This document shows, in pieces, positions 24,257-35,078 of a stretch of DNA of 50,435 nucleotides. The first letter of the stretch is position 1; each line of letters opens with the position of its first letter. Under the pieces are notes generated by a model. The model had not been told where the DNA came from and did no database searches. It worked only from the letters and a program-made list of their open reading frames with translations. The position numbers and the translations under genes are program-made. This stretch comes from Methanobacteriota archaeon (GTDB lineage: Archaea; Thermoplasmatota; Poseidoniia; Poseidoniales; Thalassarchaeaceae), in contig PBOL01000010.1 of NCBI GenBank assembly GCA_002725315.1, forward strand, positions 1 through 50,435, given 5' to 3'.

Positions 24257-27200
24257 TCAGAAGACCATGTCGTCGTCGTCGACCCCAGGCATTAGGCTGC
24301 TAAGCTCTGCAAATCTTGCGAGAGCGGCTACCCTGCGACCCCAGACTACGTACCCAGCCACACCGACAAGCGAAAAGGTGGCGCCCACAATAATCACTGG
24401 TACAGAGTACTTCGCGACGACGTCTACGCCAACGTCGAGGGCTCCCCACGTGGAGCTCATCTTACCCCCACTGATGGCCATGATATTGTTCGTTTCGTCG
24501 GTCTCGACGATGTTGTTGTCTGGATCTACAACAACGACGATTTCGTGATTGCCTGCCTCGACCATGTAGAGAAGTGTGATTGGGTTAGCTTCCTCGGTGT
24601 CGGTCTGACCAATCGGCATTATTGCCTTGACGAGCTGCCTGTAGACGATGTTGCCCTCGTCACAGCCGTTTCTCTTGATATCTGATGGTGACTGGTCCTT
24701 GCAGAGGATGATGTTCACATCCGCTGCGTGGGCGTTTCCTCGGTTCAACACGTATACGCTAACAGAGAGCATCTCACCAATCTCTCCCTCGTTAGAGGAG
24801 ATGTCTACCCTGTACAGATCAAGATCCGGGGCCCGGAGCCTGAGCTCGAGTACCTGCTCATTGTCGTCGCATTCTGGGGGAGGGTTGTCCAACAGGCCGT
24901 CCTTGTTGGCGTCGATAGTGCAAGAGTCCTCCCATATTGGGGTCTCATCATGGTCGCCACCTTGCTCAGAAGAGCCATGTTCGGATAGTAACTTGATTCC
25001 GATGAAGCGGTCCTGTAGTGCTGCATCGGGAGCAATGGAAACTATGACTACTAATTGTAGAGTTTCGTAGGGCTGCATCCTTGGAAGAGTGACGGTCCCG
25101 CTGGATGTGACGAAGCATTCGTCTGTCTCCTCAGGGAGTATCTCAGTCGCGGTGAGTTCGGAGCAGGGTTTCTCTAGGGGGTATTCAGACCTGAATCCCT
25201 CTAGCAGCGCATATTCGATTTCCCATGTGCTAAGCGGACCTAGGCCTGGTTTCACGCCCCATACGTTGTCTGCAATCGTGTTATTATGGACAGTTGGTCT
25301 ATCTTCGACGTTGCCGAAGTTTGAGACGTTCAGAGTGAACCGGACTATTCTGCTTGGGGCTGTCGTCTTGATCTTGCTCTCTACAGATGGATCTAGAGTT
25401 ATCCTCATGTCATGGAACTCTACAATCTCCACCCTTACTACTATCTGATCTTGGAGTCTAGTACCCTCGAATGGCTCTTCGCTCATCACGTTGAACGTTA
25501 GAGTATACTCGCCAGCCAGAGTCTGCTCGGGAACGTTGATGGAAATCTGTACAGTCTGGGACTCGTCCCTATCAAGCTCAGTGAACAGAATCCGGGGAAT
25601 GTTTAGATCCCAAACATGGGACTCCCCGTTCGCATCTACAATGGAAGCGATCGAGATGTCGAAGCGGTCCGGCCCGTTTCCTAGGTTGTTGATCGTGGTA
25701 TCCATGTCGTATGATTGGCCGGGGTATAATTCCAGCATGGTGTTCTCGACATCGGCTTCTAACTCGTACCTCTGAACGACGTTGGTCAGAATTAGGACTG
25801 AGTCGCGGACCTTCGGAGAGCCGTCCAAATGTGCTCTGATTGTCACAGATTCTCCTATTCCTGCTGTTGAGTTGAAGGGTGAGCACATTTCTGCTGTAAC
25901 GCTGTATGGAGTCTCTATCTGCGCCCAGTAGATGTCCTCATCTGCAGAAGACGAGGCACCCGGCCAATCGGAGAAGTCCAGGTCCACCGTCCAATGCTCG
26001 AACCTCCAAGTTAGGAGATCGAAGTTTGGTGGTTTCTCCGTGGGTGCTCCAGGGGTGGTGAAAACTAGGTCCCCGGGAGTGAAGTGCTTTGTCACCTGTA
26101 TCGGGAACTCGGCGCATTCTCCCGGTAGAACGTACAGCTTCGTGTCACCGATTTCGAATACTATGTTCCCCGTGGTTCTGATTGAGACGTTTATCCAAAG
26201 CTCAAGAACGTCAAATGTCCCTCTGTCTATGGACAACACCGGTTCACCGGTAGACCATCCTTTGAGATAAATTACGAACGTACCCGGATCTTGTGACTCT
26301 GGAACTGATACCTTGAGGTTCCTAGTGACTGTTTGCCCGGGATCAAGGGAAATAGACAGAGGGAAGTCTATCCCCCAACCGAACGGTAGAGCCCACTCAT
26401 TCTGACCCCCTAGGGTCGAGGGGTCGTAGAATGCAAATGTGTCGAAGACGTTGCCGGTGTTCCGAATTGAGATTGAGAATACTGCTGACTTGCCTTGCTC
26501 AACATCGACCTGGAAATGGCTGGTGTCTAACTCAATTCCGTGAACCACGTCCATGAGAGTTAGGAGCATGAGTTCGTTGCGAATCGCGGGGTCCTTGTGA
26601 GATGTGGCAAGAATCCTAATCTGGGCCAACTCGTCCTGCTTAGCCTGGTAAATTGTGGGGGCTCTTACCCTGACGTACAATGGGACGATTTCCCCTCCTT
26701 CCAAGAATACAGGGGTGGAGTCAAAGACGGGGGTGTTGTTGGTCGCGAAGAACAGGGTGGCCGTCCAGTTGTTTGGCACACCGTCCATGGTTACAGTGAA
26801 CGTGTCCTGGACCAACTCGGCCGGACCGGGTGTTGGGTTGGCAATTGTGATATTGAAGGTAGTTAGTTCGCTGGGTTGTATCGTGTGATAGAAAGTCTCT
26901 GCCTCGGCCGGGCAATCATACGGGTATCCCTCGATATTGGTATTTGCCTGCATCTTTTCATCGCATGCTAGGGAGACATCAACTAGACCCGTTAGTACGT
27001 GTACGTAGCATAACGTGTACTTGTTTCCATTGCTCTGATCGTTGCACTTATTCGTATCCGACCAACCAAGGTGAGCCCCGCTTCCCAGATCGTTGGCGAA
27101 TGCGGGAGGCATCCCGAAATCAGGAATTAATGGAGAGTTGGGTCCCAATTTGTCCGACTGCCACTCGGTAACTGGAACTCTTTGCCAGGGGTCAAAAATC

Positions 27201-29437
27201 GCAGAAGCGATTGAGTTGAGGGGGAATCCATTGGGGTACTCGTCGTTGGTGTGATTCAGCCTTGTGTACATCACGGTCTCTCCTTGAGAGCCATTGTAGT
27301 TGTCTAGCCAAGAGAGGTGCACATTGTCGAAGTCGTCTGTCAGAATGGCGGGGAAATGGGAGTTTGCCCCAAATGGCCTATCTGCGGGAATTCCAGCAAT
27401 TCCCTCGACTTCCGAAATCGCTCCGTCAGCAATTTGCTTAATGCCGAATGATGGAAGGCCCCCGGGTACACCGTCCCATTCGGCTGCGCCCCTCAATCGG
27501 AGACGTGTGTAGTATATCTCATAGTTCACATCGATATCGAATCCATACACCCTCCCATCTTGCCATGCAAGATGTGTGTTTCCCGAGGTGTCGATGGCTA
27601 TTGATGGATGCAAGCTGTATGCATCGTCGAGGGTAATTCTGGTGTCGTTTACGACTACTAGGTGACCGTATCCCTGATCGTCCTCAGATGGGCCGATATC
27701 CTCAGCGTAGTAGTTCTGTTGGGAGTTTGCCTCGGTCCCAGGATCACCCCTTGTCCAACCTGGCCATGGGTTATCCAAAAGAGAGTGAGGATCTAGGACT
27801 GTCATGTAAATCTCCCTAGAGTTGTTTGTCGCTAAGTATACCATTGCCTCGACCATGATTTGCAACTCTGTGGAAGAGGACGCGGATGTGGGGAAGCTGT
27901 ACATCTCTCCACCTGCACTGGTTAGTCTAGTCGTTGCCCCATTGCACGATCTAGAGTTGAGGCCGGAGCCCGACGGGCACTGTGCCAAGTCCATCATGTA
28001 GGATCCTACCGAGGTGTCGGAACCGGCCCACAGTGGAGTTGGGATTATGTCGGCAACTACGCAAGCGTCATGGGCTTGGTTGATGCTCTGTGTGTCATCG
28101 TTGTCCATTGGAGTCCCCCCATACGGGCCCTCGTCTGAAATTGGGATGACTATCTTGGTCGCATTAGGATTCCAGTGATGGTCCGCCGAAGTAGGTGGGT
28201 TGCCTGGAACGTTGCCCCCGATGTCCCTCCAAGACAGGCAGGCCCACGTAGCCGCAGGGCCCCAGAACTCGCTGTAATACCCCCCGTCGGCTGGAAGATT
28301 GGTGGCCTGGTTGTTGTATACCACCTCTGTTAGCTCTCGGATCCCTCCTGAGTCGTCGCCAGGAGCTATACCAAGTGGCGTGTTTCTCGGTCCTTGGCTT
28401 CCAGAGCCCCCCGTCTGGTAGGCATTTGCGCAGTTCCCGCTAGTTGAGGCCGCCGGCCAGTTGCCGCTCAGAGCATAGAGGGTTTCGTAGACGGTCATGT
28501 TCGCGCTAACAAGTAGTGGCTTGAGGCCGGGGAAGTAGCCTCCGCTAGCGAAGTTTCCACCGTAGAATACCACGCACATGTCTGCCCACTCAGTATTCAT
28601 GGAACCAGAAGTGTCGATTGGAACGACCATCTCGACCTTGCCTCCTCTGGTGTCATCCCAGACAATCTGAACGAAGTCGTCAACATCAACGGCAACGTCC
28701 GGATGTCCCTTGTGACCAAGAATGGGGGTCAGGAGAGTATTATCGATCTCGACGATAACAGTTCTAGCGGTTTGGTCGACAGATAGCATCTTGTAGTAAA
28801 TCTGAGATTGCTGGTAGAACATCTCCAGGGGTTCGAAAGAGTCCTCCCACACTATGTGTGGGTTGTTGTCTGAGTCGACGTCGATCGCTGGCCAGTCCCT
28901 GTTCTGGGGATCATTGGCTACCTCATAGTCGTCGGGAACTACGGAGAGTACGGAGTCCAGCGACGAGTCCCCGCTCTGATCGTCCAGAGAAGGATCAAGG
29001 AGGGTATACATGATCTTGTATTGGTTCGCCTTGTCTGTCCAAACTACATGTACCATGTCATCGTGATCTACCCGTATGTCGGGGTGCCATGCTCTCTGGG
29101 CTCCGGGGTCAGAAATTTGAGTCTGGTCGATTAGTGTCTCTCCACGCGGATCGAGCATCTTGTAGTATAGGTGGTTTGTGTTGCGGCTCCACACCAAGTG
29201 GATGTTGCCTTGGGAGTCTGCATCTAGAGCAATCATCCTGTCATTGTGTGTTCCGCTTTGCACGATCTGCACTGCATCTGTAAGTACGATGTCGGAGGCG
29301 CTGGCCCCGGGGGGAAGTGCGGAAAGGATGCTAGTTAGCATTAGGAAGACCAAGGCGATGCTCGCCTTCCTGGACTTCTTTTCTTCCAGAAGGGTGCAGT
29401 CGAAGCCCTGCATTGGCTGTTGTCGAGTTTTTCGCAT
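24257..29437 (-). CDS. Large surface protein: beta-propeller repeats with inserted VWA domain, CARDB-like modules, C-terminal anchor
   Basis: 1726 residues from ATG 29437. A basic start and hydrophobic stretch (about 24-48, ALVFLMLTSILSALPPGASA) form a signal peptide. Seven related repeats of the form D-x-D-x-x-x-N-x-H-x-V/A-W-x-D (for example DSQGNIHLVWSRN, DSDNNPHIVWED, DTSGNTHLAWQD) suggest a beta-propeller. Between the fourth and fifth repeats lies a VWA domain with the metal site PIDTSGSMN (Asp 275). Residues about 850-1650 are Ig-like/CARDB modules, including a DANKDGLLDNPPPECDDN calcium-type loop. A membrane helix (about 1678-1700) and a short basic then acidic tail finish the protein. 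I infer a cell-envelope protein that binds ligands or partner proteins. Convergent with the ArsR-type gene, with no spacer. Confidence 0.9.
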   Translation of the reverse strand: MRKTRQQPMQGFDCTLLEEKKSRKASIALVFLMLTSILSALPPGASASDIVLTDAVQIVQSGTHNDRMIALDADSQGNIHLVWSRNTNHLYYKMLDPRGETLIDQTQISDPGAQRAWHPDIRVDHDDMVHVVWTDKANQYKIMYTLLDPSLDDQSGDSSLDSVLSVVPDDYEVANDPQNRDWPAIDVDSDNNPHIVWEDSFEPLEMFYQQSQIYYKMLSVDQTARTVIVEIDNTLLTPILGHKGHPDVAVDVDDFVQIVWDDTRGGKVEMVVPIDTSGSMNTEWADMCVVFYGGNFASGGYFPGLKPLLVSANMTVYETLYALSGNWPAASTSGNCANAYQTGGSGSQGPRNTPLGIAPGDDSGGIRELTEVVYNNQATNLPADGGYYSEFWGPAATWACLSWRDIGGNVPGNPPTSADHHWNPNATKIVIPISDEGPYGGTPMDNDDTQSINQAHDACVVADIIPTPLWAGSDTSVGSYMMDLAQCPSGSGLNSRSCNGATTRLTSAGGEMYSFPTSASSSTELQIMVEAMVYLATNNSREIYMTVLDPHSLLDNPWPGWTRGDPGTEANSQQNYYAEDIGPSEDDQGYGHLVVVNDTRITLDDAYSLHPSIAIDTSGNTHLAWQDGRVYGFDIDVNYEIYYTRLRLRGAAEWDGVPGGLPSFGIKQIADGAISEVEGIAGIPADRPFGANSHFPAILTDDFDNVHLSWLDNYNGSQGETVMYTRLNHTNDEYPNGFPLNSIASAIFDPWQRVPVTEWQSDKLGPNSPLIPDFGMPPAFANDLGSGAHLGWSDTNKCNDQSNGNKYTLCYVHVLTGLVDVSLACDEKMQANTNIEGYPYDCPAEAETFYHTIQPSELTTFNITIANPTPGPAELVQDTFTVTMDGVPNNWTATLFFATNNTPVFDSTPVFLEGGEIVPLYVRVRAPTIYQAKQDELAQIRILATSHKDPAIRNELMLLTLMDVVHGIELDTSHFQVDVEQGKSAVFSISIRNTGNVFDTFAFYDPSTLGGQNEWALPFGWGIDFPLSISLDPGQTVTRNLKVSVPESQDPGTFVIYLKGWSTGEPVLSIDRGTFDVLELWINVSIRTTGNIVFEIGDTKLYVLPGECAEFPIQVTKHFTPGDLVFTTPGAPTEKPPNFDLLTWRFEHWTVDLDFSDWPGASSSADEDIYWAQIETPYSVTAEMCSPFNSTAGIGESVTIRAHLDGSPKVRDSVLILTNVVQRYELEADVENTMLELYPGQSYDMDTTINNLGNGPDRFDISIASIVDANGESHVWDLNIPRILFTELDRDESQTVQISINVPEQTLAGEYTLTFNVMSEEPFEGTRLQDQIVVRVEIVEFHDMRITLDPSVESKIKTTAPSRIVRFTLNVSNFGNVEDRPTVHNNTIADNVWGVKPGLGPLSTWEIEYALLEGFRSEYPLEKPCSELTATEILPEETDECFVTSSGTVTLPRMQPYETLQLVVIVSIAPDAALQDRFIGIKLLSEHGSSEQGGDHDETPIWEDSCTIDANKDGLLDNPPPECDDNEQVLELRLRAPDLDLYRVDISSNEGEIGEMLSVSVYVLNRGNAHAADVNIILCKDQSPSDIKRNGCDEGNIVYRQLVKAIMPIGQTDTEEANPITLLYMVEAGNHEIVVVVDPDNNIVETDETNNIMAISGGKMSSTWGALDVGVDVVAKYSVPVIIVGATFSLVGVAGYVVWGRRVAALARFAELSSLMPGVDDDDMVF

Positions 29438-29495
29438 ACTTAACGTAAACCCCTTGCGGTCACTGTTTCAAGTCCTAGGCTCTCCCTCAAACGGT

Positions 29496-30119
29496 CTAAA
29501 CCCAATCAAGCGGATCGAAGTCTTTGCCGAATCCGCCGGTTTCGTCCGTGTCTATCTCGGAGGTCCTGGGATGGGAATGTCCCCGGGACTTCCGACTCTT
29601 GTCCGACCAATCATCCACGGGGCCGGGCTTTCCTATTCCAGGTCCGAAACCGTATTTGATTTGATGTATCAAGGAGAGCTTGGTCAGCCAGACCCGCCTC
29701 ATAGAATGCATAAATTCGTTCTGGGTTAGGCCATCGAACCATACTGGTCTTGATAGATTGAAGGCCTGTAGAGGTCCGGAGGTTCCATCCTTTTTCCGCC
29801 CAACATGAAGCACCCAATCAAGGTCTGAAGATGTCATGTTGATCCGTGTGTCGTGTAGCCAAGCCTCCCATCCTTCCGGGTCTTCGTTAGATAGTTCCCT
29901 CATTGACTTCTGCTGGCCTTCGTCTACCCTGGTGATTGAATAAATCAGAATGAGGTTCCTCTTCTTTGGAATTACTACGTTGAAGAGATGGCCCTGCTTT
30001 GTTGGTGGGTATCTAATGTGCAGGTGCATAATCGCCTGTGGATCAGTAACTTCCCTAGCCTCAAGCCTCTCACCGTCAAGCCAAGCCCTGATTGATTCTG
30101 CAGCTTCGCGAGAGTTCAC
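29496..30119 (-). CDS. DUF2299-like hypothetical protein
   Basis: 207 residues from GTG 30119. The first 150 residues resemble the archaeal DUF2299 family, whose fold recalls secretion chaperones: REAAESIRAWLDGE, then HLFNVVIPKKRNLILIYSIT, and a basic segment MRRVWLTKLSLIHQIKYGFG. The last 50 residues are low-complexity, rich in Ser, Asp, Gly and Pro, ending FGKDFDPLDWV. Family assignment is from memory of the pattern and is tentative. It follows the acyltransferase gene by 20 bases on the same strand and may share its transcript. Confidence 0.65.
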   Translation of the reverse strand: MNSREAAESIRAWLDGERLEAREVTDPQAIMHLHIRYPPTKQGHLFNVVIPKKRNLILIYSITRVDEGQQKSMRELSNEDPEGWEAWLHDTRINMTSSDLDWVLHVGRKKDGTSGPLQAFNLSRPVWFDGLTQNEFMHSMRRVWLTKLSLIHQIKYGFGPGIGKPGPVDDWSDKSRKSRGHSHPRTSEIDTDETGGFGKDFDPLDWV

Positions 30120-30139
30120 GGCTCCCTCAGGGGCCCGAC

Positions 30140-31618
30140 CTATTTAGACAAGTTGAGAAGTTTTTTCGCTTCAGATATTAGCTCTTCCAGCTTTGCCCCA
30201 TCACGTGATGATGATAGTGCCCTCCTACGCTTAGAGTCGGCGAAGTCGACCCAATAATCGTACCCGAACAGGAAAATTAGGTTGCTTAGGTGGAAGGATA
30301 TCATAGCAATTATCGTTGCAGGGACAAGTAGGTAGGAGACGCCGAAAGCGGAAAGCGCAAGAGCCGCGGCAATGGGCGGCCAAAATAGAACCGGGGAGAA
30401 CATTGCAGCCAGCATGTGGTAAGTCGTCCTGGCGTCCACGCCTTCGTCAGTCCTATCCCCAAGAAAACGGGCAAGAAGGGCTTGGGGGCCGGTGGAGATA
30501 ATCGTGATCGGTGCAGAAATTAGCATTAGGGGCAAGGCGAACATAAGGCTGCGCCAGTTTCTGGAAGTGGAAATCCCAGAGTCTGTGATAGACCTTCCAT
30601 CTAGATCGTGAGAGTGGAGTATCTCGGCTGCTTGGGATGACGGTTCGATTATCTCTTCAGGAATGTCCCCATTGGAAATCATCTCGCGAACCCTCCTTGC
30701 TGCGATCACCTCATCCTTGAAGCTCGACAAACTGTCTCCGACCTGGTTAGCTTGAACGTGGGCCAATAGGTGCCATGCCCTGTAAGTTGTCCAATCGGGA
30801 GCATTCGGGGTGAGTTCTGACAGAGATTGGAAAAGCTGATCCCTCAGTGAGTTTACTTGTTTGTGGGGTGGCTCAACCCACTCACCACTAACCAGTTTTG
30901 GTCCGTGATCTGAGTCTTCTGGAGTTTCGATTAGCAGGGGGTCTCCAAATTCTACGAAAACGTCGGTTCTGAACCAGTAGTGTCTCCTGTAGTGAAGACC
31001 GACCGGTTGGATGGCTGGTGGGTCGATTCCCTTCATTGAAGCAATGGCGGCAGCGTTGATTCCAAACCTCATGGTACCAGTTTTGAATCTGTGTAATCGA
31101 GAGTCTTGGTGCGACTTTCCCTCTGGCATTACCACTGCATTGTGTCCGGCTGCGATGCAGTTTGTCATAGTAAGAAGGGAGCGTTGATTGATCTTCCTAG
31201 CATAGTCCTCATCTGCTACCCCCAATTGTATCTCGGGACGCCTGATTACTGGTTGTGAACCCATCCTTCTGGAGAACCAGCCAATCAGAGGCATAGTCAT
31301 CAGATCGTGCCTTCCCATAGAAATCACCTTCCTATCCTGTGAAAGGAGCAAGGACATTGGGTCGACCAATCCATTAATGTGAATAGAAGAGAAGATGCGC
31401 CCTCCATTGTGAATAGGTGGTTCGTCTACCTGCCTACTTCGGAAAATGTACCGCCAAGCAATTCTCATCATCTGCATTATTAGGTGCCAGAATAATGGGC
31501 TTCCTGGGTGCCGTCCAGAATGATCCCAAGGAAGGTTATCGAGCTTCTTTCGCCTTAGTTTCATGGCTCCGCTAGACAGTACTGGGTCAACATCCGGTGC
31601 TGGTTCGTTGCCTGCCAC
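30140..31618 (-). CDS. PlsC-like glycerolipid acyltransferase with C-terminal membrane domain
   Basis: Members transfer acyl groups to glycerol-phosphate lipids. The acyltransferase block spans about residues 70-250: catalytic HINGLVD (His 80, Asp 86, the six-residue spacing seen in Gat1-like enzymes), MGSQPVIRR, and MPEGKSHQDSRLHRFKTGTMRFG, matching the family motif with Glu-Gly and a basic follow-on. Residues 350-450 contain about three membrane helices, then a charged C-terminus. GTG 31618 is used; ATG 31564 would remove 18 residues that carry no conserved motif. An acyl-ester enzyme is unexpected in an archaeon with ether lipids, but such homologues have been noted in Marine Group II. TAG stop. 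Confidence 0.88.
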   Translation of the reverse strand: MAGNEPAPDVDPVLSSGAMKLRRKKLDNLPWDHSGRHPGSPLFWHLIMQMMRIAWRYIFRSRQVDEPPIHNGGRIFSSIHINGLVDPMSLLLSQDRKVISMGRHDLMTMPLIGWFSRRMGSQPVIRRPEIQLGVADEDYARKINQRSLLTMTNCIAAGHNAVVMPEGKSHQDSRLHRFKTGTMRFGINAAAIASMKGIDPPAIQPVGLHYRRHYWFRTDVFVEFGDPLLIETPEDSDHGPKLVSGEWVEPPHKQVNSLRDQLFQSLSELTPNAPDWTTYRAWHLLAHVQANQVGDSLSSFKDEVIAARRVREMISNGDIPEEIIEPSSQAAEILHSHDLDGRSITDSGISTSRNWRSLMFALPLMLISAPITIISTGPQALLARFLGDRTDEGVDARTTYHMLAAMFSPVLFWPPIAAALALSAFGVSYLLVPATIIAMISFHLSNLIFLFGYDYWVDFADSKRRRALSSSRDGAKLEELISEAKKLLNLSK

Positions 31619-31658
31619 GATGGGTCGGAGGAGTCTAAGGTCTTGATGGTTCAGAGCG

Positions 31659-32090
31659 TCAAATCAGGTGCTCCCTGATCTCTGAAGCGATCCTTGCTCC
31701 TTCTTCGTGGTCTATTGGGCTGGACTTGAATGGCCAGGAAAGGCCCCTTCCATCTTCATACTTTGGAATGATGTGGAAGTGGACGTGGAATACGCTTTGG
31801 AACGCGTTTGGACCATTATTCTGGAGTACGTTGAATTCCTTGGTCCCGGTTGCCTTAAGCACTGCTTGGGAAATCCGGGGTAGGACGGCCCCGATTGCCT
31901 GGGAAGATTCGGAGGATAGTTTTTCCAAGGTCCTAGCTGGCTCCTTTGGGACTACTAGGGTGTGTCCGGGGCTGAAGGGATTAATATCCAAGAAGGCGAA
32001 CACTAGATCATCTTCGTATACCCTGTGACAGGGGATTTCTCCGTTAATAATCAGAGAGAAGATGCTCGGGCCTTCCTCATCCATATTCAC
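31659..32090 (-). CDS. HIT family nucleotide hydrolase
   Basis: Histidine-triad proteins hydrolyse or transfer AMP from adenosine-phosphate compounds. The 143-residue product has FSLIINGEIPCHRVYEDD at the front, INPFSPGHTLVVPK in the middle and the catalytic triad HVHFHIIP near residues 100-107. The fit with HINT-type proteins is complete. The GTG at 32090 overlaps the stop of the upstream FAD gene as GTGA; ATG 32084 is an alternative two codons in. The overlap means coupled translation with the flavoprotein. Confidence 0.92.
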   Translation of the reverse strand: MNMDEEGPSIFSLIINGEIPCHRVYEDDLVFAFLDINPFSPGHTLVVPKEPARTLEKLSSESSQAIGAVLPRISQAVLKATGTKEFNVLQNNGPNAFQSVFHVHFHIIPKYEDGRGLSWPFKSSPIDHEEGARIASEIREHLI

Positions 32091-33559
32091 ACCGAACCAA
32101 AGATGGAATTGGCGACATTTGCCAGCCCGTCCAGCCTTATTGCAGTCACCATCTCTGTATTCATCACTACGGAGTCGTCTGTTATCCGAATCCCCTCATC
32201 CAATATCTCAGTGATCGAAGAAATTGCAGATTGCGATGATGTTTGCTCAGATGAAATAGACGAGGCCATGGCGTTGGACAGGCGTGTTGCGAACTGGCCT
32301 ACCGTGAGCCCTCCTCCGTTTCTCATGGATTCGATTTGTTCGGATGATTCCCTGAGTGCCTCATCAATCGCCGATGGCCCTCCGAATTGGGCTTCTGCAG
32401 ACCAACCCGATGCGTGGGCCCCAGCCGCCTTTCCAGTGACTAAGTCCTCTAGAAGGATGTTTCCTGGCAGGGGTCCTTCTCCATGCGTCCCGAAATGGCC
32501 GCTTCTCCCGGCTGCATATAGGCCTGTGAGCCAAAGCCTGGAAGGTTGGCCCTCGCCAGTAGACCCATCGAAGGTTACTCTTCCGAACTCGTCGCATGGT
32601 ATTCCACCTGTAGTGAAAGCGACGCCGGCGGTAATTGGAATAACTTCCCTTGATACGTCTATTCCAAGCCTTTCAGATACATCAGAAGCGATTTGGGAGA
32701 ACCAAGTAGCCGAGTCGGGCTCCATTGCTCTCATATCTAGGACGCACGGTTCGCCCTCAAGGACTTCCTCTGGGCCAACATCTTCACCGCTTTCTCTCCG
32801 GATCCTTGCTCCTGAGCCTAGTACGTCTATTGGAATGTGAATGTCACAATTTCTCACAGACAGCGGATGCAGAGGGGTTGATTCCATGCCCCTCAAGGAG
32901 ATTCCTGCTCTCAACGCAAGAGAGGCTCCAGTGCCCGCACCTTCATTGGGCGTTGCCCATAGGCCCTGATGGCCCTCCGTTGCGAGAATAACAGACTTGG
33001 CTTGAATGGGGACAATCTCCCCCGTAAGTGTGCTCATCGTAATAATTCCCCTAACCTGTTGGTTGTCTACTGCCAGCCGTATAGGTAGTGTGTCTGCCCA
33101 TCGCTGAATTCCTCTCTTGATTGCTTGCTCCTCGAGAATCCGGGTAACCTCTCTGGTGGTTGAGTCCCCACATCCAGTCATCCGATCTACACTGTGACCC
33201 GGAGCGCTGTATGCATGTGGGAGGCCTCCTTCTCTCGTTCTTAGTACGAGGCCCCATCGCTCCAACTCAGCCAAAGTAGCGACTCCCTCTCCGCAAACCC
33301 TGGCTGCTGAAATCTTGTCAGTCGACTCTCCACCAGCAGAAATGGTATCTTCCCTGTGAGCTGAGGAGTCCAGCTCATCTATTGAGGCTGCAATTCCGGC
33401 TATAGAATGGGCGCCTGAAGCCGAGCCAACTCCCGAGGCGTCGATGAGTAATGGAGAGGTGCCTGAATCTGCACATGCTATCGCTGCACGCAGGGCTGCA
33501 GGTCCAGCTCCGACCACTACTACGTCCCACGACTCCAAGGCTATCGTAGTCGTCCACAA
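32087..33559 (-). CDS. FAD-dependent oxidoreductase of the succinate dehydrogenase/fumarate reductase/aspartate oxidase family
   Basis: 490 residues. The FAD-binding start is WDVVVVGAGPAALRAAIA; a capping domain contains the family's ITAGVAFTTGGIPCDEFGRV, and the FAD-closing segment is LWLTGLYAAGRSGHFGTHGEGPLPGNILLEDLVTG. The C-terminal helical domain is short and ends without the extended tail of true SdhA. No SdhB or SdhC partner is adjacent, so I do not call it succinate dehydrogenase; NadB or another desaturating flavoprotein is possible. The only candidate first codon is TTG 33559, since an in-frame TGA lies just upstream; TTG 33538 is a later choice. Confidence 0.82.
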   Translation of the reverse strand: MWTTTIALESWDVVVVGAGPAALRAAIACADSGTSPLLIDASGVGSASGAHSIAGIAASIDELDSSAHREDTISAGGESTDKISAARVCGEGVATLAELERWGLVLRTREGGLPHAYSAPGHSVDRMTGCGDSTTREVTRILEEQAIKRGIQRWADTLPIRLAVDNQQVRGIITMSTLTGEIVPIQAKSVILATEGHQGLWATPNEGAGTGASLALRAGISLRGMESTPLHPLSVRNCDIHIPIDVLGSGARIRRESGEDVGPEEVLEGEPCVLDMRAMEPDSATWFSQIASDVSERLGIDVSREVIPITAGVAFTTGGIPCDEFGRVTFDGSTGEGQPSRLWLTGLYAAGRSGHFGTHGEGPLPGNILLEDLVTGKAAGAHASGWSAEAQFGGPSAIDEALRESSEQIESMRNGGGLTVGQFATRLSNAMASSISSEQTSSQSAISSITEILDEGIRITDDSVVMNTEMVTAIRLDGLANVANSIFGSV

Positions 33560-33605: not shown

Positions 33606-35078
33606 TCACTCTGCGACTGAAATTGCCAGTCTTCTCACTGCTACTGCAGCATCTAGCATCTTCTCTGCTGCTCCCTCTGGATTGAATCCCGAAGACAGGG
33701 AAGTAGTCACCACAAGAGACGACAAGGTCTCCCCATTTGGGCCTCTCAGGGTTACCTGCACTGGTCTAGATCCAGAGGTGTTTTTTTGCCAAGCCAGGCC
33801 TATCCATAACACGTAGCAATTGTCAATGAGCCTCCCTAGAACATCGACCAGATCATTTCCTTCCTCTCCAAGTCGGGCGGGTCCCTTGGGTTGTCTAGAG
33901 AGTGGGGGGCTCAGTCTGATGGTCTGCTTGTGCGGTTCTCCATCCGCAGCAATGATCTCTATCTCAACCTTGGATTCCTTCCTCGAGTGATTGTGGACCA
34001 TAACGAATAGATCTCCCTGTCCTTGGGAGCATCTAGGAGGGATGTCTAGATCCATCCTCCATGGACTCTCAATCAATGAGGAGTGCCCTCGCATTGCAGA
34101 GTCCTGTAACCGGTCTATCAGCCTGAACAGTCCGGGCTGCCAAGCTCTGGTGTGAGCCATGAGTCTCCTAAGTGTCCTGATACTGAACTTCGAGTTGTCG
34201 TCAGTGAGTTCGTCAATAGCAGCGACCCTGAAAACCCTCTTTGATTCGGAAAGTAGTCTTTCGTCATCGAGGAGGTCGAGATGGTTCAGATGAAGCACCC
34301 GAAGTAAGTGCTCTACGGCTGAAGAGGGAGTTTGGCTAGACCGGACCTTGTTTTCCAACTCACCGACCCAGTCGTCCCATGCTCCTGCCGTTTCTGGATC
34401 AAGGTGAGCTACTACCAGATCTGAGAGAACCCTATCCAAGGTGCTCTGGTGAAGGGTTGGCGCATGAAGAGAGAGTAGCGGGAAGTCACTGTCGGTCATT
34501 GGAATCCGACTCTCGAGTTGTATCGTATTTAGGAGAGCTATTGCTCCAAGGAAGAGTGCCAGACCAAACAAGAAAGAGGCTAGAATTGTACCAGTCTCGA
34601 AGTTGTCGGCTGAGTTAATTGCCAAAGCAGCAACAATCGAGCAAAGGATGCGTGTCCTCTCTCTCAGTACCCTCTCGTGGAGAGTGTTGAGGATTCGTTC
34701 CACCCCGGGGTATGCCTCCATTGATTTCATACCCTCCGCTTTAAGTTGCAGACGGTCCCTAGCAGACATCTGTGCAAAGGAAGAGGCAAAAAGGGCGGGG
34801 GCGAAGAGAATTGATTGGAGTGCAAATAGAGCAACTCCCACCTGCTCAAATGCGTGGCTTCGGTCCGAGAAGAGCACTATGGTATAGCAGATGGCAACTA
34901 CAGATACTAGCGTTCTGAGTCTGGAAATCGTAGGTAGAGTTGACACCCGAGTCCAGAGGACTCTTTGAGAGTCCCTTATCCTAACTCTCCTAGAGAGAGC
35001 AGACTCGGTAACTTGACCGAAACTGCTGTCGTCCCCATAGGGATTGGGAAGTAGAGAGTCGCTCTTCGCCACGCCCAT
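33606..35078 (-). CDS. Hypothetical membrane protein
   Basis: 490 residues from ATG 35078, unrecognised. A soluble 50-residue head precedes two hydrophobic segments (about 55-75 and 80-105), then a charged loop and another pair (about 142-190). The C-terminal 290 residues are soluble: a helical region rich in Leu, Asp and His (HLDPETAGAWDDWVGELE onward) and a beta-rich end (DLFVMVHNHSRKESKVEIE). No catalytic motif is visible. It is separated from the flavoprotein by 46 bases on the same strand. Confidence 0.75.
   Translation of the reverse strand: MGVAKSDSLLPNPYGDDSSFGQVTESALSRRVRIRDSQRVLWTRVSTLPTISRLRTLVSVVAICYTIVLFSDRSHAFEQVGVALFALQSILFAPALFASSFAQMSARDRLQLKAEGMKSMEAYPGVERILNTLHERVLRERTRILCSIVAALAINSADNFETGTILASFLFGLALFLGAIALLNTIQLESRIPMTDSDFPLLSLHAPTLHQSTLDRVLSDLVVAHLDPETAGAWDDWVGELENKVRSSQTPSSAVEHLLRVLHLNHLDLLDDERLLSESKRVFRVAAIDELTDDNSKFSIRTLRRLMAHTRAWQPGLFRLIDRLQDSAMRGHSSLIESPWRMDLDIPPRCSQGQGDLFVMVHNHSRKESKVEIEIIAADGEPHKQTIRLSPPLSRQPKGPARLGEEGNDLVDVLGRLIDNCYVLWIGLAWQKNTSGSRPVQVTLRGPNGETLSSLVVTTSLSSGFNPEGAAEKMLDAAVAVRRLAISVAE

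Follow-up and report, generated by a model that had tools for sequence, protein, structure and literature searches.

A long Gat1-like acyltransferase retained across the archaeal order Poseidoniales: a candidate for the first acylation step of glycerolipid synthesis

In the yeast GPATs Sct1 (Gat2) and Gpt2 (Gat1), the His and Asp of motif I stand five residues apart and not four, and motif III reads FPEGGSHDR, as printed in a review on yeast (PMC7613133). Among archaea, PlsC homologues together with a putative fatty-acid pathway were described in Marine Group II by Villanueva et al. 2017, as cited in passages of PMC6962369 and PMC7852524; an initial sequence-only reading of the DNA studied here had likewise referred to published acyltransferase homologues in this group. 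Passages of Rinke et al. 2018 (PMC6461757) give G1P dehydrogenase as absent from, and G3P dehydrogenase as present in, this group. Excerpts of Coleman et al. 2019 (PMC6431249) describe archaeal PlsC and PlsY as patchy, known from bins alone and not likely to take part in making membranes. Bacterial PlsY and PlsC, for their part, reportedly accept both stereo-forms of the substrate (PMC13400652). The lipids of Marine Group II are themselves disputed: part of one article states that no intact GDGT lipids were found where the group dominates (PMC6962369), whereas another claims in its title that the group contributes to the archaeal lipid pool (PMC7291766). The published idea of a “mixed membrane” is still inferential.

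The window analyzed here, a stretch of 50,435 nucleotides, belongs to a Marine Group II genome (order Poseidoniales) with a match to GGGPS, in agreement with the archaeal host presumed in the sequence-only reading. Its minus strand carries, at 30140-31618, an intact open reading frame for a protein of 492 amino acids, with a GTG start and no internal stops. We call this protein and its counterparts in the order type A; a second long HX5D paralogue, which scores closer to the bacterial proteins (e.g., at loci L083, L084 and L086), is termed type B. The features are given below, with invariance read from an alignment of 41 rows (A3: the window protein, 17 type-B and 23 bacterial sequences):

32087..33559, minus strand: FAD-dependent oxidoreductase, NadB/SdhA-like, scoring under the equivalog cut-offs; 4-base overlap with the HIT gene; at 43 of 45 loci
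31659..32090, minus strand: HIT-family protein, upstream neighbor; at 45 of 45 type-A loci
30140..31618, minus strand: predicted Gat1-like long acyltransferase, type A; PF01553 domain plus C-terminal helical region, 492 aa
31361..31381, minus strand: motif I, H80-INGLV-D86 (HX5D), presumed catalytic His and Asp; H80, G83, L84, D86 and P87 invariant in 41 of 41 rows
31238..31261, minus strand: motif II region, residues 120-127, GSQPVIRR; G120 and P123 invariant in A3, R126 in at least 90% of rows
31103..31126, minus strand: motif III, residues 165-172, PEGKSHQD; PEGxSH as in the yeast GPATs (FPEGGSHDR)
30989..31006, minus strand: motif IV region, residues 205-210, PVGLHY; G207, L208, H209 and Y210 invariant in A3
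30146..30556, minus strand: C-terminal predicted membrane helices, residues 355-491, from hydropathy and the AlphaFold2 model
29496..30119, minus strand: DUF2299 protein, downstream neighbor; at 45 of 45 loci
24257..29437, minus strand: large protein with a CARDB domain, next in the block; at most of the 45 loci

The 492-aa protein has a single Pfam domain, PF01553, whose score of 37.9 bits (cut-off 23; E 1.8e-9) places the match beyond chance; the same domain was found in all 21 members of an alignment of the window protein with 20 long relatives (A1). The motifs from which the sequence-only reading had recognized this acyltransferase family are intact, with HINGLVD starting from position 80 and PEGKSHQD from position 165, and the fusion to membrane helices that it described holds as a prediction, on which the hydropathy maxima (356-377 and 402-453) and the structural model agree. 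The residues that never vary in A3 are H80, G83, L84, D86, P87, the PEG of motif III, H170, G207-Y210, F216, R217 and W276, the last of these lying behind the acyltransferase domain, where T259 and P320 are also retained in at least 90% of rows. We take GSQPVIRR to be the motif II stretch, and PVGLHY presumably corresponds to motif IV.

The five residues between His80 and Asp86 (HX5D) are what the sequence-only reading had counted as a Gat1-like six-residue spacing, and this spacing is a constant feature: it is seen in all 46 type-A ORFs (44 of them distinct), 43 of 43 type-B ORFs and 42 of 42 long bacterial ORFs, whereas the 35 short PlsC ORFs of Poseidoniales, chosen by PEG[TS]R and length and with a few present twice, uniformly display HX4D. 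PEGx[ST] is present in 45 of the 46 type-A ORFs (PEGKSH in the window protein; the exception, at L072, reads PEGTAH), and the His170 that closes PEGx[ST]H does not vary across the 41 rows of A3. The TIGR00530 model for AGP acyltransferases gives the window protein 27.2 bits where 102.95 are needed, and this shortfall, together with HX5D in place of HX4D, ruled out a canonical PlsC/AGP acyltransferase. The fungal Sct1/Gpt2 subfamily proper was likewise rejected, given about 36 residues between motifs II and III as against about 120 in yeast. Taken together, HX5D, PEGxSH, the invariant residues and the profile matches described below identify the window protein, by its sequence, as a Gat1-like acyltransferase, which we file under that name and not as an orthologue of the yeast enzymes because the spacer of about 120 residues is absent.

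A comparison with the yeast GPATs, resting on printed motifs and not on aligned sequences, shows that Gpt2 and Sct1 share with the window protein the HX5D motif I and the PEGxSH motif III, and perhaps also the possession of several membrane spans, but differ in size (about 84-86 kDa versus 492 aa) as well as in the motif II-III spacer. Moreover, a membrane span precedes motifs I-III in Gpt2, whereas in the window protein every clear hydrophobic stretch follows the domain; the prediction for its C-terminal part, of moderate confidence, is three to four helices, and Gpt2 is printed with six membrane spans. The Thermotoga enzyme TmPlsC resembles the window protein in fold and motif order, although canonical PlsC proteins have a His-Asp interval smaller by one residue, are shorter overall and lack the C-terminal region. 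The relatives found outside Poseidoniales are long bacterial acyltransferases from Myxococcota, Rhodothermota/Bacteroidota, Gemmatimonadota and Planctomycetota, which share HX5D, PEGxSH, a conserved stretch behind the domain and a similar length, but are only 22-27% identical to the window protein; we know of no characterized member of this group. In profile-versus-profile comparisons, 18 type-A proteins matched the Gemmatirosa protein with 98.8% probability over 215 columns that extend behind the acyltransferase domain, and type A matched type B with 99.9% probability over 452 columns. On the side of difference, the motif II-III loop of type A is 7 residues longer than that of the Gemmatirosa protein and, as we read the alignment, the bacterial consensus KDxATxK is replaced by DARTTYH in the window protein.

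An AlphaFold2 model built on a 41-sequence alignment (mean pLDDT 77.7, pTM 0.77) displays the strands and helices of the acyltransferase domain at about residues 40-270, further helices up to about 350, and then four long C-terminal helices (355-389, 394-426, 434-470 and 472-491; block pLDDT 52-89). Upon re-alignment of the model to the best 1000 chains by Foldseek rank, the top solved match was T. maritima PlsC (TmPlsC, 5kym; Z 12.8, 181 aligned residues, 2.9 Å), followed by human GPAT1 (Z 12.6, 250 aligned, 5.3 Å) and three plant-type GPAT entries (Z 11.3, 11.2 and 11.1), such that 5kym, 8e4y and 1k30 are all matched at Z 11-13. A complex I assembly chain, seemingly unrelated, also reaches Z 10.9; PatA comes at 9.1, LpxM at 7.5 and 7.4, and all other rows of the list at 4.8 or less. 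The Foldseek E-values are weaker, GPAT1 alone passing E 0.001 (9.7e-4), with TmPlsC at 4.7e-3 and ATP-synthase chains from 5.2e-3, near PlsC in rank. A search of solved structures with the single sequence of the window protein returned no match, and profile searches of the same kind recovered TmPlsC at E 0.007 and 5e-7, with unrelated membrane proteins appearing from E 0.03.

In our phylogenetic tree, type A forms a clade of its own (SH-aLRT 100) on a very long stem of 1.87 changes per column. When an outgroup is included, it joins type A, type B and the bacteria at an open fork; without one, the program warns of meeting long branches. Types A and B may go back to one gene or to two acquisitions. 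It was computed from 10 of the 37 type-B loci plus three from A1 and all 42 rows then called bacterial, with proteins under 400 aa left out; the bacterial sample, the best 80 of 207 loci, is biased because a single peptide pattern served for its retrieval and resemblance to the Gemmatirosa protein for its ranking. Plasmid searches yielded one long relative, that of Gemmatirosa, and otherwise partial matches; a copy on a Persicobacter plasmid was set aside for its apparently broken frame, and a scan of viral contigs for relatives found none. Most Poseidoniaceae have type B, as do genera g4, g6 and g8 within the window's family and, as match numbers suggest, g11.

Given the very long type-A stem and the DARTTYH in place of KDxATxK, the window enzyme may have changed its substrate. 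As an alternative to a phospholipid acceptor, the enzyme might acylate a glycolipid, an aminolipid, a surface protein or a polysaccharide, in the manner of PatA and LpxM, which share the fold. The stem branch and the large CARDB-domain protein at the end of the gene block are compatible with such an acceptor, but PatA and LpxM rank under PlsC and the GPATs in the structural comparison, the Gat1-like signature motifs are intact, and the HIT and DUF2299 neighbors indicate no particular acceptor; we consider this alternative decidedly unlikely.

The gene is nearly universal in the order. Matches at E 0.001 or better were detected in 140 of 145 Poseidoniales genomes, which fall into two families, the window's own with 74 genomes and Poseidoniaceae with 71, and in 32 of the 33 genomes with completeness of 90% or more and contamination of 5% or less. 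Clear type-A proteins are present in 134 of the 145 (31 of the 33 good ones), while six of the 140 have weak best matches only (6.5e-8 to 1.9e-22; type B or fragments: G019, G055, G105, G119, G138 and G141). No match was obtained in five of the 145 (G013, G036, G110, G123 and G134), of which G013 is 94% complete and belongs to the window's genus. In a sample of 243 genomes of the phylum, 62 of 64 Poseidoniales matched; outside the order, eight genomes gave partial matches of at most 40 bits, to the acyltransferase domain. The order and strand of the HIT, acyltransferase and DUF2299 genes are kept at all 45 type-A loci, which come from 44 genomes including that of the window. Most simply read, the gene was present in the common ancestor of the order and has held a fixed place.

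This wide retention also bears on the quality of the source genome, which is a bin of 52 contigs with 81.6% completeness and could in principle have picked up a bacterial contig. However, contamination is very unlikely in view of the order-wide presence and synteny: matches occur in 140 of 145 genomes and the same gene block in 44, and the contig also encodes a replication factor C-like protein (PF08542, above cut-off). We therefore deem a contaminating contig vanishingly improbable.

The wider block, spanning 24257-33559 on the minus strand and running from the FAD oxidoreductase through the HIT, acyltransferase and DUF2299 genes to the CARDB gene, is conserved across the order, and its members have no evident functional link. 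Those loci that lack the CARDB protein either end near contig or retrieved-sequence edges or give no match. Upstream of the block, at 33606-35078 on the minus strand, the window encodes a 490-aa protein that no Pfam or NCBIfam model matches at E 0.01; it has this upstream position in 9 of the 15 longer loci.

As the sequence-only reading had advised, we surveyed the same genomes for G1P dehydrogenase, GpsA, fatty-acid synthesis, and further PlsC or PlsY genes, and what emerged mostly favors its interpretation. G1P dehydrogenase (PF13685) has no match over cut-off in any of the 145 genomes, with 10 weak partial matches at 19-22 bits against a cut-off of 28, whereas 13 of 14 controls match, the four archaeal ones among them. 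The GpsA domain PF01210 is found in 144 of 145 genomes (143 over cut-off), a bare match that says little because all 14 controls also have it; strong GpsA-type matches (best E 2e-19 or better) are present in 137, with 1.5e-36 in the window's genome and weak matches only in seven. This dehydrogenase pattern agrees with the passages of Rinke et al. 2018 (PMC6461757). PlsY (PF02660) matches none of the 145 genomes as against 8 of the 14 controls, in contrast to Coleman et al. 2019 (PMC6431249), where Marine Groups II/III are listed with PlsY, and PlsX was absent from the one genome searched for it, the window's own. PF01553 itself occurs in all 145 genomes, with two or more matches in 133, and a short PlsC-type match (frame under 400 aa) in at least 124; the window's genome has such a second, short HX4D PlsC elsewhere.

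The ether-lipid route evidently persists, since CarS is found in 136 of 145 genomes (not in the window's own incomplete one) and GGGPS (PF01884) in 119, and strong CdsA matches (162-174 bits) are limited to seven genomes, all of genus g4 (seven of its eight). In nine of the 12 genomes of genus g7, GGGPS was not found, by loss or an assembly gap. The bacterial-type CdsA-like protein of g4 is seen, for example, at L189:4631-5593 (G015); one such protein scores 84 bits against the phosphatidate cytidylyltransferase PRK11624 (cut-off 385). Of the weak PF01148 matches outside g4, those compared coincide with the positions of CarS genes.

With PlsY absent, a known first-step GPAT would be missing from these genomes unless the long enzyme performs the step, and it is this missing first acylation that the divergent, order-wide Gat1-like enzyme best fits. 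Hence, with a confidence a little above even, we propose that the window protein is a membrane-anchored Gat1-like G3P (or dihydroxyacetone-phosphate) 1-O-acyltransferase, with the short PlsC acting second to give phosphatidic acid. In this scheme, a GpsA-type dehydrogenase would supply G3P, whose hydroxyl would be activated by His80 and Asp86, with the PEGKSH and PVGLHY loops aiding substrate binding and catalysis; an acyl-CoA (or acyl-ACP) would donate the chain to yield 1-acyl-G3P, to which the separate short HX4D PlsC, which fits the second step by its motif, would add another chain to form phosphatidic acid. We infer the substrate, the acylated position, the acyl donor and the passage of the product to membranes. 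Counting against a first-step role are the five genomes without a match (one of them 94% complete) and the six with weak matches only, along with the long stem, the altered KDxATxK stretch, the motif II-III distance of about 36 versus about 120 residues, and the complex I and ATP-synthase chains that come near PlsC in the structural rankings. The ether-lipid genes that persist, the scarcity of strong CdsA matches outside g4 and the missing acyl source in the window's genus likewise weigh against it.

Alternatively, the enzyme might acylate a lysophospholipid (1-acyl-G3P or a lyso-ether lipid) in a second or remodeling step, the first being performed by another protein or unneeded. The best sequence-level PDB match is indeed an LPA acyltransferase, TmPlsC, and Pfam and NCBIfam place the window protein nearest that superfamily; further, a Marine Group II lipid with an isoprenoid ether and an acyl ester on G3P has been proposed, according to part of PMC6962369. 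Yet the protein falls far short of the TIGR00530 cut-off, its HX5D and PEGxSH agree with the yeast first-step enzymes, and the genome already possesses a short HX4D PlsC, making such a role fairly unlikely in our estimate and leaving first-step acylation as the reading we carry forward.

What is new here relative to the PlsC homologues already known from Marine Group II, which come from the same organisms and belong to the same superfamily as the window protein, is the division between two enzymes, the order-wide conservation and the Gat1-like identity. The published PlsC, in the passages available, is treated as one function, whereas we recognize two distinct enzymes, both widespread in the order, and no PlsY; among the literature matches listed for Poseidoniales acyltransferases or PlsC, within the open-licence papers covered, no paper on the long enzyme was found. 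The combination of a widespread first-acylation candidate, a short PlsC and a GpsA-type gene answers the objection of patchiness and of bins: the view of Coleman et al. is weakened for PlsC by its wide presence and fixed gene order, though the genomes here too are largely bins. It also reduces the “mixed membrane” question to a single expressible enzyme that can be assayed; if active, it would mark a bacterial- or eukaryote-type start of phospholipid synthesis in a dominant order of archaeal plankton.

As for fatty-acid synthesis, also among the checks that the sequence-only reading had advised, the outcome is divided. Strong ketoacyl-synthase matches (best E <1e-20) are present in 87 of 145 genomes, namely 67 of 71 Poseidoniaceae and 20 of 74 in the window's family (g2, g4, g6, g8 and g11), and many Poseidoniales are, as judged from sequence, carriers of a PfaA-like fatty-acid megasynthase; no such strong match came from any of the 11 genomes in the window's own genus, where acyl chains would consequently be obtained from outside or by another route. 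Another possibility is that the enzyme works as proposed but serves storage or the handling of imported fatty acids, in neutral-lipid formation or CoA recycling, and not membrane phospholipid. All genera reportedly have genes for fatty-acid degradation (PMC6461757), and, besides the lack of a strong ketoacyl-synthase match in the window's genus, most of the order has no strong CdsA match. Nevertheless, that almost all of these small genomes keep the gene suggests a core role, and genus g4 does have a CdsA-like gene; a function in storage or in handling imported fatty acids strikes us as very improbable.

If the first-step acyltransferase does feed membranes, the Poseidoniales might have crossed the lipid divide: their own two-step pair would make G3P acyl-ester phospholipids beside, or mixed with, isoprenoid ether lipids on G3P, with chains from the PfaA-like megasynthase in Poseidoniaceae and some sister genera and with CdsA activating phosphatidic acid in one genus. 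We offer this larger proposal tentatively and regard it as rather doubtful; were it true, retention across the order would signify a stable mixed membrane and not a passing gene transfer.

The full architecture of the megasynthase was read from a single genome, G002, the figure of 87 genomes being a count of ketoacyl-synthase matches. In this member of Poseidoniaceae (L185:1070-9895), the predicted PfaA-like protein has 2,941 aa, with a similar start in L186 (G048), and comprises, in order, a ketoacyl synthase (KS), an acyltransferase, a second KS stretch, three ACP stretches, a KR and a dehydratase part (KS-AT-KS-ACPx3-KR-DH). It scores 840 bits against PfaA, where the cut-off is 1010, and its gene adjoins those for phosphopantetheinyl transferase-like and enoyl reductase-like proteins. 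Among the literature matches listed, as titles and abstract starts, there was no report of such a megasynthase in Marine Group II, and we do not claim it as unreported. Besides its PfaA-like match, genome G066 encodes a further 2,347-aa protein (L188:1927-8970) with a KR, an ACP, two ketoacyl-synthase stretches and a dehydratase part.
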